Part shown: piece after piece, positions 3,901-58,463 of the stretch | How positions within the stretch are numbered: the first letter of the stretch is position 1 | How the letters are laid out: each line of letters starts with the position of its first letter | Assembly (NCBI RefSeq): GCF_000421545.1 | Contig: NZ_ATXF01000005.1 | Coordinates: forward strand, 124,001 to 188,000 | Source of the DNA: Agromyces italicus DSM 16388 | GTDB lineage: Bacteria > Actinomycetota > Actinomycetes > Actinomycetales > Microbacteriaceae | DNA length: 64,000 nucleotides | Reading direction: 5' to 3' | The notes under the pieces: generated by a model | Seen by the model: only the letters and a program-made list of their open reading frames with translations | Told to the model about the DNA's origin: nothing | The model's database searches: none | Position numbers and translations under genes: made by a program

Positions 3901-3928
3901 GGTCGAGGAGCGAAGCGTCTCGAGGCCC
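3901..3928. repeat. Dispersed palindromic repeat, copy 1 (short form)
   Basis: ggtcgaggagcgaagcg followed by tctcgaggccc matches the core of the family found at 5536, 10462, 11498, 34720, 44501, 47489, 54732 and 56679. This copy lies between two divergent genes, unlike most others, which lie at gene 3' ends. Confidence 0.75.
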
Positions 3929-5535: not shown

Positions 5536-5570
5536 GGGTTTCGAGACGTCGCTTCGCTCCTCCTCAACCC
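5536..5570. repeat. Dispersed palindromic repeat, copy 2
   Basis: gggtttcgagacgtcgcttc then gctcctcctcaaccc. It lies between two convergent genes, and the TGA stop of the FAD oxidoreductase (5564-5566, minus strand) is part of it. Confidence 0.9.
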
Positions 5571-44500: not shown

Positions 44501-44646
44501 CTGGTTGAGGAGCGCCCGGTACGGTTTCGAGACGCTCGCCGCGCTCGCTCCTCAACCAGCGGTACGGTTTCGAGACGCTCGCTGCGCTCGCTCCTCAACC
44601 AGCAGCACGGTTTCGAGACGCTCGCCGCGCTCGCTCCTCAACCAGC
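44501..44646. repeat. Tandem array of dispersed palindromic repeats (three direct copies plus a partial inverted one)
   Basis: Near-identical 38-bp copies (ggtttcgagacgctcgccgc... ending tcctcaaccagc) start at 44523, 44566 and 44609, a constant 43-bp period with 5-bp spacers. A short copy in the opposite direction (ctggttgaggagcgcccgg) starts at 44501. The last copy supplies the stop codon of the exonuclease gene. Confidence 0.95.
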
Positions 44647-47488: not shown

Positions 47489-47566
47489 GCGGGTCGAGGA
47501 GCGAAGCGACGTCTCGAAACCCCAGGGGGAGGGCTTCGAGACGCTCCTCCGTCGCTCCTCAACCCA
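47489..47566. repeat. Inverted pair of dispersed palindromic repeats
   Basis: Copy a (47489-47522) runs gcgggtcgaggagcgaagcg to ctcgaaaccc; copy b (47531-47566) runs the other way, gggcttcgagacgctcctcc to tcctcaaccca. The pair could fold into a long hairpin starting one base after the BCCT stop codon and may act as its terminator. Confidence 0.9.
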
Positions 47567-53507: not shown

Positions 53508-54208
53508 GCGACATGCCGACCGAGTCGGAGGAGCGCCTCACCGTCGAACTCGACGGCGGCCCCGTCTCTGCGATCGCCGGGCGCGCGGCGGGCGCGACGC
53601 CGTCTGCGGCCACGATCGTCGTCGCCCACGGCGCCGGGGCGGGCATGGAGCATCCCTTCATGTCGGGCTACACGCGCGCGCTCAACGATGCCGGCTTCGC
53701 GACCCTGCGCTTCAACTTCGCCTACCGGGAGGCCGGGCGGAGGTTCCCCGACCGACCGCCGGCCGCGATCGCCGCATGGCGTGAGGTCGTCGCGGTCGCG
53801 ACGGCGCGCGCGACGGAAGCAGGCCGTGCCGGCGCGCCGATCTGGGCGGCGGGCAAGTCGTTCGGCGGGCGCATGGCGTCGATGGCCGTCGCCGAGGGCC
53901 TGGATGTCGCGGGGCTCGTCTTCCTCGGGTACCCCCTGCACGCGCCGGGCAGGCCCGAGAAGCCGCGCGACGAGCACCTGCCCGGGATCACGGTGCCGAT
54001 GCTGTTCCTGCAGGGGCGCAACGACCCGTTCGCGATTCCCAACGAACAGCTCGACCAGGTGGCCGAACGCGTCGGCCCGAACGCCGTCGTGGAGTGGATC
54101 GAGGGCGGCAACCACTCCTTCGAGGTGAAGGGCGCGAAGCGCCCCGCGGCCGAGATCGGGGCAGGCCTCGCGGCGCCGACCGCTGAGTTCGTTCGCGCGC
54201 ACGGCTGA
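53504..54208 (+). CDS. Alpha/beta hydrolase (dienelactone-hydrolase/KANL3-Tex30-like)
   Basis: 234 residues from ATG 53504. [16 protein letters not shown] provides the oxyanion loop; [10 protein letters not shown] has the Ser nucleophile; [10 protein letters not shown] the Asp; and [12 protein letters not shown] the His, so the triad is complete. The layout matches the KANL3/Tex30 group of small hydrolases, whose substrates are unknown. ATGA overlap with the membrane gene upstream indicates a two-gene operon, but no functional link is evident. Confidence 0.92.
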
Positions 54209-54281
54209 CCGGATCTTACGGTTCACGAACGCCGTTCCGGTGCGACCTCGTCGGGATCGATTCGCGGCGTACGCTGGCGGC

Positions 54282-55883
54282 ATGAACGAGACCCCCGATG
54301 CCGGCCGCACGTGGCTGCCGCCCGCTGCGGCGGGGGTCGCCGCGGCCGCCTTCGGCGTTGGGCTCGGCGAACTGACCGCGGCGATCATCGCGCCCGAGTC
54401 GGGTCCGTTCGTCGTGGTCGGCGCGGCCCTCATCGACTTCGCACCGCCGTGGGCGAAGGACGCCGCGATCGCACTCTTCGGCACCGGCGACAAGCCGGCA
54501 CTGCTCATCGGCATCGGCGTGGTGCTGCTCGTCGTCTCGGGCGCCGCCGGGGTGCTCGAGGTGCGACGGCCGCCGTGGGGGCAGGTGGTGCTCGGGCTGT
54601 TCGGCGTGGTCGGCGCCGTGGCCGCCGCGACGCGCGCGAATGCGCCGCTCCTCGCCGTGGTGCCCTCGCTCGTCGCCGGGCTCGCGGCGGTGCTGGCGTT
54701 GCGGGTGCTGCTCGGGCGGTTGCGGGGCTCGCTGGTCGAGGAGGGGGCGCCTGCGAACGTCTCGAAACCCGGCGATCCGACCCAACCAGGTCTCGAGACG
54801 TCGCTTCGCTCCTCCTCGACCCGCCGCGGGTTTCTCGTGTGGGCCGGCGGCGCGACGGCGATCGGCGTGCTCGCTGCGGTCTCGGGTGCGGCGCTGCGCG
54901 CCGGCGGGAGGGCGCTCTCGGCCGTGCGCGACGCGATCAGGCTGCCCGCTCCGGCGACGACCGTGTCGGTGCCGGCCGGCGCGGAGCTCGGCATCGACGG
55001 ACTCGCCCCGGTCATCACTCCGAATGGGGAGTTCTACCGCATCGACACCGCCCTCGCCGTCCCGCTCGTCGATCCGGCCGAGTGGCGCCTCCGCATCCAC
55101 GGGATGGTCGAGCGCGAGGTCGAGCTCACCTGGGACGAACTGCTCGCCCTCCCCCTCGACGAGAGCGTCACCACGCTCGCCTGCGTCTCGAACGAGGTGG
55201 GCGGCAGCCTCATCGACAACGCGGTGTGGCTGGGGCATCCGATTCGCGAACTGCTCGCGCGGGCCCGCCCGCTCGCCGAGGCCGACATGGTGCTCTCGCG
55301 CAGCATCGACGGATTCACCGCCTCGACGCCGCTCGAGGTGCTGCAGGACGACCGGGCCGCGATCCTCGCGGTCGGCATGAACGGCGAGCCGCTGCCGCTC
55401 GAGCACGGGTTCCCGGTGCGCATGGTCGTGCCGGGTCTCTACGGCTACGTCTCGGCGACGAAGTGGCTGGTCGAGCTCGAGGTGACCCGCTTCGACGCCG
55501 TCGACGCCTACTGGACCGACCGCGGCTGGAGCGCCCGTGGCCCGATCAAGCTGCAATCCCGCATCGACGTTCCGCGCCACGGTCAGTCGGTCGCCGTCGG
55601 CACCGCCGTACTCGCGGGCGTCGCCTGGCACCAGCACGTCGGCATCGACGCCGTCGAGGTGCAGCTCGACGAGGGCGAGTGGCGCCCGACGATGCTCGCG
55701 ACCGCGATCTCGGCCGACACGTGGGTGCAGTGGCGCTACGAATGGCCGGATGCCTCGCCCGGAACCCACACCGCCCGCGTACGCGCGATCGGGGCCGACG
55801 GCGAAGTGCAGACGGCGGAGGAGCAGGGCGTCGTGCCCGATGGTGCGACCGGCCTCCACGAGATCTCGTTCGACGTGCGCTGA
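54282..55883 (+). CDS. Membrane-bound molybdopterin oxidoreductase (sulfite-oxidase-like) carrying an in-frame repeat
   Basis: 533 residues. Residues 1-150 hold four hydrophobic helices. Residues ~151-181 are encoded by an inverted pair of dispersed repeats. TRRGFLVWAGGATAIGVL is a twin-arginine-like signal anchor in the middle of the protein, as is usual in this family. From ~250 the oxidoreductase domain follows: WRLRIHGMVEREVELTWDEL, TTLACVSNEVGGSLIDNAVW with Cys as candidate molybdenum ligand, GFPVRMVVPGLYGYVSATKWL, and a C-terminal Mo-co dimerisation domain (RIDVPRHGQSV..., VAWHQHVGIDAVEVQLDEGEW). It likely oxidises or reduces an S- or N-oxide outside the membrane. The partner cytochrome is not adjacent. 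Confidence 0.92.
   Translation: MNETPDAGRTWLPPAAAGVAAAAFGVGLGELTAAIIAPESGPFVVVGAALIDFAPPWAKDAAIALFGTGDKPALLIGIGVVLLVVSGAAGVLEVRRPPWGQVVLGLFGVVGAVAAATRANAPLLAVVPSLVAGLAAVLALRVLLGRLRGSLVEEGAPANVSKPGDPTQPGLETSLRSSSTRRGFLVWAGGATAIGVLAAVSGAALRAGGRALSAVRDAIRLPAPATTVSVPAGAELGIDGLAPVITPNGEFYRIDTALAVPLVDPAEWRLRIHGMVEREVELTWDELLALPLDESVTTLACVSNEVGGSLIDNAVWLGHPIRELLARARPLAEADMVLSRSIDGFTASTPLEVLQDDRAAILAVGMNGEPLPLEHGFPVRMVVPGLYGYVSATKWLVELEVTRFDAVDAYWTDRGWSARGPIKLQSRIDVPRHGQSVAVGTAVLAGVAWHQHVGIDAVEVQLDEGEWRPTMLATAISADTWVQWRYEWPDASPGTHTARVRAIGADGEVQTAEEQGVVPDGATGLHEISFDVR
54732..54822. repeat. Inverted pair of dispersed repeats inside a coding sequence
   Basis: Copy a (54732-54772, ctggtcgaggagggggcgcc to tctcgaaacccgg) and copy b (54788-54822, ccaggtctcgagacgtcgc to tcctcctcgaccc) lie head to head in the molybdopterin oxidoreductase gene. 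They keep its frame open and encode the linker VEEGAPANVSKPGD...LETSLRSSST just before the twin-Arg motif. Confidence 0.9.
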
Positions 55884-56011
55884 TCGCCTCCACGAGTCGG
55901 TCGCGGCACCGGTCCTCGACATCCTGGATGGTCCCCCGAAACTCCACAGGATCCTGTTCGGCGTGGCGCGGCGACGTGTCCGGAGGGAGTATCGCTCCAT
56001 GGAGGAGATCG

Positions 56012-56073
56012 ACAGTTCCACAACTCCACACCCGAGACGTCCACAGTTCCACAACGCCACACCCCGGTCGTCC
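56012..56073. repeat. 31-bp tandem repeat upstream of ribbon-helix-helix gene
   Basis: Two units start at 56012 and 56043 (acagttccacaac(t/g)ccacaccc, then gtcc); a third, degenerate unit may start at 56074. The repeat lies 83-144 bp before the RHH gene's ATG, where an operator for it would be expected. Units contain ccacaa/ccacac words but no exact DnaA box. The region 55884-56155 holds no gene. Confidence 0.88.
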
Positions 56074-56155
56074 ACAAGGCCACTTGTGCACGCCGTCCGC
56101 CAGCGGAACACCCCCGCACGGCTGACGGCCTCGACCCACGCAATCGAGGATCAGC

Positions 56156-56686
56156 ATGCCGACGCGAACCATCCGAGTCCATGACCAGACGCACCGAGCG
56201 ATCACCGACCTGGCGTATCTTCTCGATACGACCAAGTCGTACGTCGTCGCCGACGCGATCGCAGAGTACGCCGAGCGTCGAGGCTCGATCGTGAGGATCG
56301 ACGGTCGGGTGACGTTCGACGAGCTTCCGATCGCCGACCGACTCATGATTCGTCGCGACGAGCTGATCCGGGTGTTCGCGAAGCGCGAGGCGAGCGACAT
56401 CAGGGTTCTCCACCTCGGCGACGAGGGAAGCGATGGTGTCGCGGGCGGCGACGACGAGATCGACGACGAGACGCCGTGGATGCCGCCGCGCCCGGTCGAA
56501 CTCCTCGTGACGACCGCACTGCACCGCGGTGGCGGGGAGGCCGACGAACTCGAGCGCATCGCCACGAAGCTGCTGCGCACGCGGGTGCACGTCGAATCGG
56601 CGACACGACTCGAACTCTTCGACCGGCCCGCCCTCGAGCGCGCCCGCGCGAGCTCGACGCCCCTTTCCGAGTGGACCGCGGGTTGA
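56156..56686 (+). CDS. Ribbon-helix-helix protein with C-terminal MNT-like domain
   Basis: 176 residues. MPTRTIRVHDQTHRAITDLAYLLDTTKSYVVADAIAEYAERRG is an RHH/CopG-type DNA-binding unit. Residues ~60-170 follow the layout of a MNT-type nucleotidyltransferase (IRRDELIRVFAKREASDIRVLHLGDEG, acidic loop GGDDEIDDE, later PVELLVTTALH and LLRTRVHVESATRLELFDRPALE). The catalytic G-S motif is not conserved, so it is probably inactive or only a fold relative; this reading is tentative. No toxin gene is adjacent. It may bind the 31-bp repeats upstream. The stop codon is supplied by a dispersed repeat. Confidence 0.72.
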   Translation: MPTRTIRVHDQTHRAITDLAYLLDTTKSYVVADAIAEYAERRGSIVRIDGRVTFDELPIADRLMIRRDELIRVFAKREASDIRVLHLGDEGSDGVAGGDDEIDDETPWMPPRPVELLVTTALHRGGGEADELERIATKLLRTRVHVESATRLELFDRPALERARASSTPLSEWTAG

Positions 56687-56726
56687 GGAGGAGCGCCCGA
56701 CGAAGGAGGACGCGTCTCGAAACCCA
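56679..56726. repeat. Dispersed palindromic repeat, copy with internal expansion
   Basis: gcgggttgaggaggagcgcc then cgacgaaggaggacg and tctcgaaaccca; contains the TGA stop (56684-56686) of the RHH gene and ends 13 bp before the convergent amidase stop. Confidence 0.9.
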
Positions 56727-56738
56727 CCGCCTGCAAGT

Positions 56739-58463
56739 TCAGAGGCGCGGCGTGCGCGGCGGCTCGCTGCGGCGGGCGCCGGTCGCCTCGAAGGCCGCGG
56801 CGAGTGTCAGCAGCGCGGAGTCGTCGTAGGCGCGCCCCGCGAAGGTGAGCCCGACCGGCATGCCGATGTCGGCCATCGTGCCCATCGGCACCGTCACCGT
56901 CGGGATGCCGAGGTGGCGGGGCACCAGATTGCCGTTGGAGACCCACACGCCGTTGCGCCAGCCCAGGTCGGCCGAGGCCTCGTTCACGTCCATGTCGGCA
57001 GGGCCGACGTCGGCCGCGGCCGGGAACACCACGGCGTCGAGGCTGAGCTCCTCCATCCACTGCTCGAGGTCGATGCGGCGCGTCTCCTCGAGTCCGCGGA
57101 GGCCGGCCTCGAGTTCGGGGATCTCGGTGAAGGAAGTGACGGGGTGCTCGCGCACCTGCGCCGGGTACGTCGCGATGTCGTCGTCGAACCCGTCGTAGCG
57201 GTCGGGCATTGCGCCCTCGGGGTGGGGGAAGATCGTCGCTCCCTCGACGTCGGCGAGGCGGTCGAGCGCCGGGTCGCCGTTCGCGCGCAGAAAGTCGTCC
57301 CACGCCCACGCCGACAGGTCGATGATCTCGCGGCGCAGGTACTCGGGCGAGACGAGCCCGCGCGTCGCGATCGTCGGCGTGCCCGGCCGGTCGCCCTCGT
57401 AGTTCGAGACCACGGGGAAGTCGACCTCGACGACCTCGGCTCCGGCTGCCTCGAGGTCGCGGCGCGCGGCCTCCCACAGGGCGATGACCGAAGCGCGGGT
57501 CTCGATGCGCCGACCCGTCGGGCCGCCGATGCCGACGTGGTCGCCGGTGCCGGCGACCGGGTCGGCATTGACGTACATCGCGGGGACCCCGAACCGCTTG
57601 CCCGCGAGCGCCGCGCGCGCGGCCGAGACATCCGCGCCCTCGAGCGCCGGGTACGAGGCGGGCCGCACCTTCGAGGTCGCCGGCAGCGCCACCCACGGCT
57701 GCGCACGCCAGAAGTCGCCGCGCGTCTCGGCGTCGTCGGCGACGATGACGTCGAGCACCTCGAGCAGGTCGGCCATGGTGCGGGTATGCGGCACGACGAC
57801 GTCCATCGTCGGCACGAGCGGCCAGTTGCCGCGGGTCGAGATGACGCCGCGCGACGGCGTGTACGCGCAGAGCGCGTTGTTCGACGCCGGCGCGCGTCCG
57901 CTCGACCAGGTCTCCTCGCCGAGCCCGAACGCCGCGAACGACGCCGCCGTCGCGGTGCCCGAGCCGTTCGACGAACCCGAGCCGAACGCGGCCGTCAGGT
58001 ATTCGGCGTTGTACGGGCTCTCGGCGCGGCCGTAGACGCCGCGCTGCATGCCGCCGTTCGCCATCGGGGGCATGTTCGTGAGCCCGATGAGCACGGCGCC
58101 CGCCGCACGCAGCCGCTCGATCGTGAAGGCGTCGCGCTGCGCGACGAGGTGCTCGAACGCGGGCGAACCCGACGCCGCCGTGAGTCCCTTCGCGAGGTAA
58201 CTGTCCTTCGCGGTGTACGGGATTCCGTCGAGCGGCCCCCGTACGTCACCGCGGGCGCGCCGGGCGTCGGAGGCCGCAGCGTCGGCCCGGGCCTCGGGGT
58301 TCATGACGACGAGCGCGCCCAGCGCGGTCGCCGTTCCGGGTGCGTCGTACGCCGCGATGCGGGCGAGGTACGCGTCGAGCAGATCGACCGCCGACACGCG
58401 ACTCGACTCGAGCGCCTCCCGCAGCTCGGCGATCGACGCCTCGACGACGTCGAACCCGCTCAT
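56739..58463 (-). CDS. Amidase-signature family protein
   Basis: 574 residues from ATG 58463. FDVVEASIAELREALESSRVSAVDLLDAYLARI is the usual helical start; LDGIPYTAKDSY has the catalytic Lys; the Ser-rich loop is FGSGSSNGSGTATAASFAAFGLGEETWSSG, with the cis-Ser and nucleophile Ser. The Gly-Gly pair of the typical GSSGGSA loop is replaced by Asn-Gly, but the geometry can be kept. MPPMANGG precedes it. The partner enzyme upstream, agmatine deiminase, overlaps by four bases and produces N-carbamoylputrescine, an amide-like substrate. So this enzyme may process that product; this is inference. Confidence 0.9.
   Translation of the reverse strand: MSGFDVVEASIAELREALESSRVSAVDLLDAYLARIAAYDAPGTATALGALVVMNPEARADAAASDARRARGDVRGPLDGIPYTAKDSYLAKGLTAASGSPAFEHLVAQRDAFTIERLRAAGAVLIGLTNMPPMANGGMQRGVYGRAESPYNAEYLTAAFGSGSSNGSGTATAASFAAFGLGEETWSSGRAPASNNALCAYTPSRGVISTRGNWPLVPTMDVVVPHTRTMADLLEVLDVIVADDAETRGDFWRAQPWVALPATSKVRPASYPALEGADVSAARAALAGKRFGVPAMYVNADPVAGTGDHVGIGGPTGRRIETRASVIALWEAARRDLEAAGAEVVEVDFPVVSNYEGDRPGTPTIATRGLVSPEYLRREIIDLSAWAWDDFLRANGDPALDRLADVEGATIFPHPEGAMPDRYDGFDDDIATYPAQVREHPVTSFTEIPELEAGLRGLEETRRIDLEQWMEELSLDAVVFPAAADVGPADMDVNEASADLGWRNGVWVSNGNLVPRHLGIPTVTVPMGTMADIGMPVGLTFAGRAYDDSALLTLAAAFEATGARRSEPPRTPRL

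Follow-up and report, generated by a model that had tools for sequence, protein, structure and literature searches.

How does a stretch of palindromic DNA come to be read as protein inside an enzyme gene, and what, if anything, is it kept for? The question is raised by a locus of Agromyces italicus DSM 16388, where a head-to-head pair of repeat copies lies within a gene coding for a polytopic molybdopterin oxidoreductase (54282–55883, plus strand; the MoCo gene in what follows). All coordinates refer to the window, i.e., the whole stretch of 64,000 nucleotides that was analysed, unless another locus is named. The encoded protein has 533 residues and a PF00174 match in its C-terminal part (residues 258–409, E 4.9e-44). 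Ahead of this domain there is a membrane part with a number of helices on which hydropathy and a weak AF2 model are both ambiguous (the protein may have five TMDs in all or another total), a loop that we call the linker, the twin arginines R181 and R182 (codons at 54822–54827, plus strand) and a hydrophobic helix. Both arginines are found without exception in the 24 proteins aligned, and a helix follows them. Homologues of the 533-residue protein were found in 56 of 60 Agromyces genomes, own included.

The repeat pair and the gene that carries it

The first copy, GGTCGAGGAG...TCTCGAAACC, extends over 54734–54769 on the plus strand and is read in phase as ..LVEEGAPANVSKP. It is followed by a spacer of 19 nt (54770–54788, plus strand) and by the second copy, inverted (54789–54821, minus strand), which reads ..GLETSLRSSST and whose final ACC is the codon preceding R181. 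Residues 151–180 are encoded by this pair, which makes up nearly the whole linker, with the last repeat codon abutting R181–R182. An earlier note on this DNA had described two inverted copies at residues ~151–181 with the frame staying open across them, and both points were borne out. The consensus of the repeat is the palindrome GGTYGAGGAG...TCTCGARACC. In the AF2 model, residues 152–179 have pLDDT values below 50 and the flanking stretches 76–88; since the model is weak as a whole (mean pLDDT 60.3, with 198 of 533 residues below 50, including much of the enzyme domain), the low values of the linker lend little support to a flexible loop.

One explanation would be that the likeness to a repeat is due to chance or to ordinary GC-rich coding sequence. 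That all six frames are open across the pair would fit, and is ordinary: the same was seen in 401 of 2000 shuffles and in 691 of 5000 92-mers drawn at random from the window, so that composition accounts for it and we discarded it as a special property. However, the strict motif GGTCGAGGAG-N-TCTCGA has four matches in the window vs. a mean of 0.00 in 100 shuffles and 42 in the whole genome vs. 0 for the reversed control, and the layout of the pair is the one found genome-wide (see below). The window shuffles and the genome control rule out chance similarity, and the probability of this explanation is negligible.

Proteins of comparable build have been described in PMC5449189. In Sco3746 and in the Rieske protein Sco2149 the first helices are inserted without the Tat pathway and the last helix by Tat; ~8 loop residues suffice for Tat in Sco2149, and mutating conserved features of the Rieske loop had little effect, with the exception of the arginines and the minimum length (PMC5449189). 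Among Sco3746 homologues the TMD4–TMD5 loop is non-conserved and of variable length, and TMDs 2–4 contain conserved heme histidines (PMC5449189). The window protein resembles them in its C-terminal MoCo domain, in the twin arginines before the last helix and in the loop before the arginines, likewise non-conserved and variable in length. It differs in having no His in residues 1–147, and the likeness is judged on the described features. Because its membrane part has no His, we have not placed the window protein among the heme-bearing Sco3746 proteins; each of the 30 aligned proteins has 0 or 1 His in its first 145 residues. The loop would lie on the cytoplasmic side, and use of Tat is predicted.

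A palindrome family lying mostly outside genes

Besides the 42 strict matches, a looser pattern gave 124 partly overlapping matches in the genome of A. italicus, also with 0 in the control. The stretches around the strict matches and around the first 100 of the 124 looser ones form a sample of 301,458 nt. This sample contains 126 matches, of which 83 are intergenic, 9 lie at gene ends and 34 in genes as predicted by a home-made codon model (coding fraction ~0.88). The intergenic matches are found between tandem (56), convergent (20) and divergent genes (7). Examples in the window are the copies at 47492–47517 (plus strand), with an inverted GGTT variant at 47536–47564, and at 3901–3923 (plus strand). 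The view that a repeat lying mostly outside genes has been turned into protein sequence is supported. The head-to-head pair is also real, but it is no special arrangement. Among the 99 copies of the sampled part with both ends intact, neighbours less than 60 nt apart are head-to-head in 15 cases, tandem in 14 and tail-to-tail in none, and the copies of the 15 head-to-head pairs (window pair included) are separated by 5–19 nt, i.e., this is the usual layout genome-wide.

At the fourth base and its partner the same 99 copies have C:G (24), T:A (58), C:A (14) or T:G (3). The 82 copies with C:G or T:A are no more than suggestive, as the Fisher p of 2.6e-10 refers to copies related by descent and not independent. 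Among the strict copies the C variant is commoner in genes (16 of 38 copies vs. 9 of 61 for the T variant, p 0.004, or 0.007 without the chance match L062); this fits the T placing a TGA in one frame, although the two variants were sampled by different patterns. Six predicted genes receive their TGA stop codon from the GGTTGAGGAG (T) variant, of which there are 61 copies. One of these donors is the copy at 56681–56724 (plus strand), with the stop of the predicted gene 56156–56686; two others are located in the window at 5537–5569 and 44609–44643, and three elsewhere in the sample, in L066 (1505–1534), L214 (6493–6526) and L222 (1985–2025). Half repeats also stand three in a row, in short tandem arrays with periods of 43 and 45 nt (window 44527–44643; G000:C4:195770–195896).

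Strict matches number between 0 and 280 in each Agromyces genome, and 56 of the 60 genomes have one or more. The reversed control finds 0 or 1 in each, so that genomes with just one or two matches may be devoid of the repeat. Of 120 genomes in the wider family, 48 have matches, mostly few and maybe due to chance, and more than 100 were counted in each of three genomes that belong to two further genera (g9, g30). At gathering score, no Rfam family was detected over 54000–57600 of the window.

The closest parallels come from known palindromic repeats. In the GTAG/CGTC REPs, oppositely oriented units lie near one another and occur between tandem as well as convergent genes; some are located inside ORFs and some donate stop codons (PMC3733652, Di Nocera 2013). 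The Agromyces repeat is likewise a short high-copy palindrome, mainly outside genes, that forms inverted pairs and supplies stop codons like the GTAG REPs of that account. It may differ in its ends, where no GTAG tag was seen by eye in the 42 copies inspected with their flanks (CGTC is present in most of them, but internal, ahead of TCGARACC), and it differs in that no associated Y1 tyrosine transposase was found. The corresponding family, PF01797, was found in 0 of 60 Agromyces genomes (own included) and in 5 of 14 control genomes. Mobilisation of the repeat by a RAYT was consequently rejected for these 60 genomes. Intragenic palindromes are already known in Rickettsia and some other bacteria, and Rickettsia palindromic elements (RPEs) are described in the same paper as short palindromes in frame within genes likely encoding functional proteins (PMC3733652). 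Measured against that description, and not by sequence, the Agromyces repeat is similar in being found in frame inside genes with Pfam domains and different in belonging to another phylum and in having most copies outside genes. The main text of PMC3733652 names none of Actinobacteria, Microbacterium, Clavibacter, Streptomyces, Mycobacteri-, Frankia, Kineococcus or Arthrobacter, and a literature search of partial coverage found no account of the Agromyces repeat or of intragenic REPs in Actinobacteria.

A different short motif, GGATGCC, is over-represented in the window, with 65 occurrences vs. 13.4 expected (0 of 100 shuffles reach 65); it is found in genes, on either strand, as well as between genes.

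The linker in relatives and the loops of other proteins

We took 70 homologue loci (own included), dropped L087, L089, L091 and L094, where the contig ends before the linker, and read the linker in the remaining 66; those of L090 and L108 are unsure, since the frame in which the upstream part was aligned differs from that of the enzyme part. Sequence and length of the linker vary strongly among the 66, and in an aligned set of 30 the linkers are unrelated. Close relatives have linkers in common (e.g., L076–L078). By eye, none of the others resembles that of the window, in agreement with the lack of family similarity that the earlier note had pointed out. The note would have taken the same linker in relatives without the repeat family as evidence against its reading; this was looked for among the linkers read, and none was found. 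Nor are orthologues merely shorter by the ~30 residues whose absence the note had proposed to look for: the 30 aligned proteins measure 514–556 residues (533 for the own one, included). No clean gain of ~30 residues was seen either. The nearest relative, A. lapidis JCM 14321 (G026), is 91.5% identical in the C part and holds at the same place an unrelated linker of 38 residues. There is therefore no clean empty site, and the pair may have come in by insertion or by replacement of an older linker, two courses that are indistinguishable here.

The repeat family is present in frame at the same loop in two other loci, L017 (G013) and L084 (G020), the latter with the first arm four times. In both the repeat is read as AGRGAPDE.., in a different phase from the LVEEGAP.. 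of the window. A fourth carrier, L013 (G057, A. subbeticus DSM 16689), has the outer repeat arms only, a remnant. On a tree of the 66 rows, with 50 on the side of the window protein and 16 on the paralogue side, the four carrier rows take three changes (bootstrap range 3–3), the starred branches force at least two, and the clustering of the carrier label is not far from chance, 26 of 500 shuffles needing as few changes. Since G013 and G020 are sister genomes, theirs counts as one event, and leaving out the remnant L013 makes two events in all. Isolated arm matches (one mismatch at most) were not counted as copies; they were seen in L011, L034, L073, L082 and L102 and, in a further scan that covered 70 of 80 named loci, in L114, L132, L139, L142, L149, L154, L155, L182, L185, L190 and L191. 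L114, by its coordinates the same locus as L034, is built as a tandem array; its units contain CTCCTCGACC and might descend from the repeat. The match of L142 looks like a different short repeat. A homologue 55% identical was found in L166, on a contig titled Vibrio cholerae strain 35D, perhaps a contaminated assembly.

The empty-site comparison that the MoCo loop does not offer is provided by a loop of HemE, which has 18 nt in A. lapidis vs. 60 nt in A. italicus, a net difference of 42 nt (comparison of 30 loci from 40 genomes with a match). In the HemE of G010 the same repeat is found in the same loop and in the same phase. In L231 and L235 the HemE loop contains another palindrome, GGTTTCGACARGCTCAACC-like, also read as protein; no such palindrome was found in the window at up to three mismatches. 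For MenD, repeat-like stretches were recognised by eye in a first loop in G016, G049, G010 and G047 and in a second one in G016 and G049. The MenD loops of A. lapidis have other sequence (60 vs. 93 nt and 126 vs. 120 nt), and hence give no clean empty site. By eye, a repeat-encoded MenD loop of A. italicus is apparently shared with G016, where it has diverged yet is open.

Over the 301-kb sample, 30 half copies lie in 19 predicted genes, that of the MoCo protein included, with the frame open through them; another four of the 34 in-gene matches had been set aside by eye as chance coding (L049, L061, L062 and L197). Ten proteins of the 18 other genes were scanned and all ten gave Pfam matches. 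From these matches we take them to be an alpha-mannosidase, an ABC permease, a HrpA-like helicase, a MenD-like TPP enzyme, a PPOX-like oxidase, HemE, a ClpC-like ATPase, an ABC transporter, NadA and a FAD-binding protein. The repeat sites are outside the domain ranges in seven of the ten, and within one domain, or between stretches of it, in three (HrpA-like, PPOX-like and HemE). Four copies at 30 codons or less from the predicted start (L043, L044 and two in L199) may precede the real start.

Hairpin, peptide or filler

The earlier note had also proposed that the mRNA could form a long hairpin at the pair, pausing translation right before the export signal. A selected hairpin of this kind would slow ribosomes once the first membrane helices had been made, thereby aiding Sec insertion or the hand-over to Tat. 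The folding itself stands: the strand at the repeat pair is predicted to fold strongly (-56.8 kcal/mol, z -5.6 over 99 nt). When the 99 nt upstream of the twin arginines were folded in all 66 linkers, six had z below -2, two of them repeat carriers, namely L013, the strongest (z -4.2), and the window, the third (z -3.4). These 99 nt cut the longer arrays short (L017 z -1.6 and L084 z +0.2); with the whole repeats refolded (window z -3.8, L017 -2.4, L084 -1.5, L013 -2.9 to -3.0), all four carriers beat most shuffles. However, 60 of the 66 linkers have z above -2 and the other 62 are mostly without a strong fold. A strong fold is thus not conserved among the linkers, and every palindrome is bound to fold; the absence of the hairpin from most other linkers argues against a conserved pausing role, for which there is no comparative support beyond the carriers. 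The same palindrome is moreover held by HemE and MenD, which we take to be soluble proteins. The Tat pathway acts after translation, and a pause ahead of a Tat signal would be without evident use. We consider a selected pause very unlikely, although, the hairpin of the window pair being unusually strong, some RNA role in this species or in the other carriers may exist.

A benefit could instead reside in the peptide, its charge or length being adjusted to Tat or to the release from Sec, so that the repeat would have been selected as protein. The MenD loop shared with G016 indicates that such inserts can persist. Against this, carriers that read the repeat in different phases have unlike peptides in this MoCo loop, and mutations of conserved features in the Rieske loop had little effect, its arginines and minimum length excepted (PMC5449189). 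We regard a useful peptide as unlikely. At the other extreme, the MoCo gene might have been damaged by the repeat and be heading for loss, as a repeat inside a gene is generally expected to be harmful; yet its frame is intact, the PF00174 domain is present and the gene has been under purifying selection along the branch to A. lapidis. The dN/dS is ~0.16 for the C part (dN 0.044, dS 0.271) and ~0.26 for the N part, values that span the whole branch and not just the time since the capture of the repeat. We regard damage on the way to loss as extremely unlikely.

Very probably, a head-to-head REP-like pair entered the MoCo linker in open phase and has been kept as neutral filler. The palindrome pair would have come into the loop ahead of the twin arginines and the last helix. 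A minimum length, but no specific sequence, appears to be all that this loop requires, and a repeat landing there in open phase should cost little; with no demand on its sequence, neutrality is the most likely reason for its retention. The same repeat family entered the MoCo loop in other Agromyces too, and in other proteins it is found in loops, in tails and between domains. More tentatively, and with the odds somewhat against it, the Agromyces palindromes may continually give rise to new protein segments. The MoCo linker, the HemE loop and two MenD loops would have been refilled repeatedly, the first in different phases and HemE by more than one palindrome family, some inserts being inherited across species and diverging as protein, and the spread would depend on a machinery other than RAYTs.

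With Agromyces, translated palindromic repeats are now also seen in a free-living actinobacterial genus. Dozens of its species have been sequenced, so that the capture, phase and fate of inserts can be traced on trees, loop by loop. The genus also offers naturally occurring variants, in length and in sequence, of a loop preceding an internal twin-arginine signal.

The linkers of L034, L022, L075 and L082 are built of short in-frame tandem repeats, suggesting that the loop may also grow by slippage.
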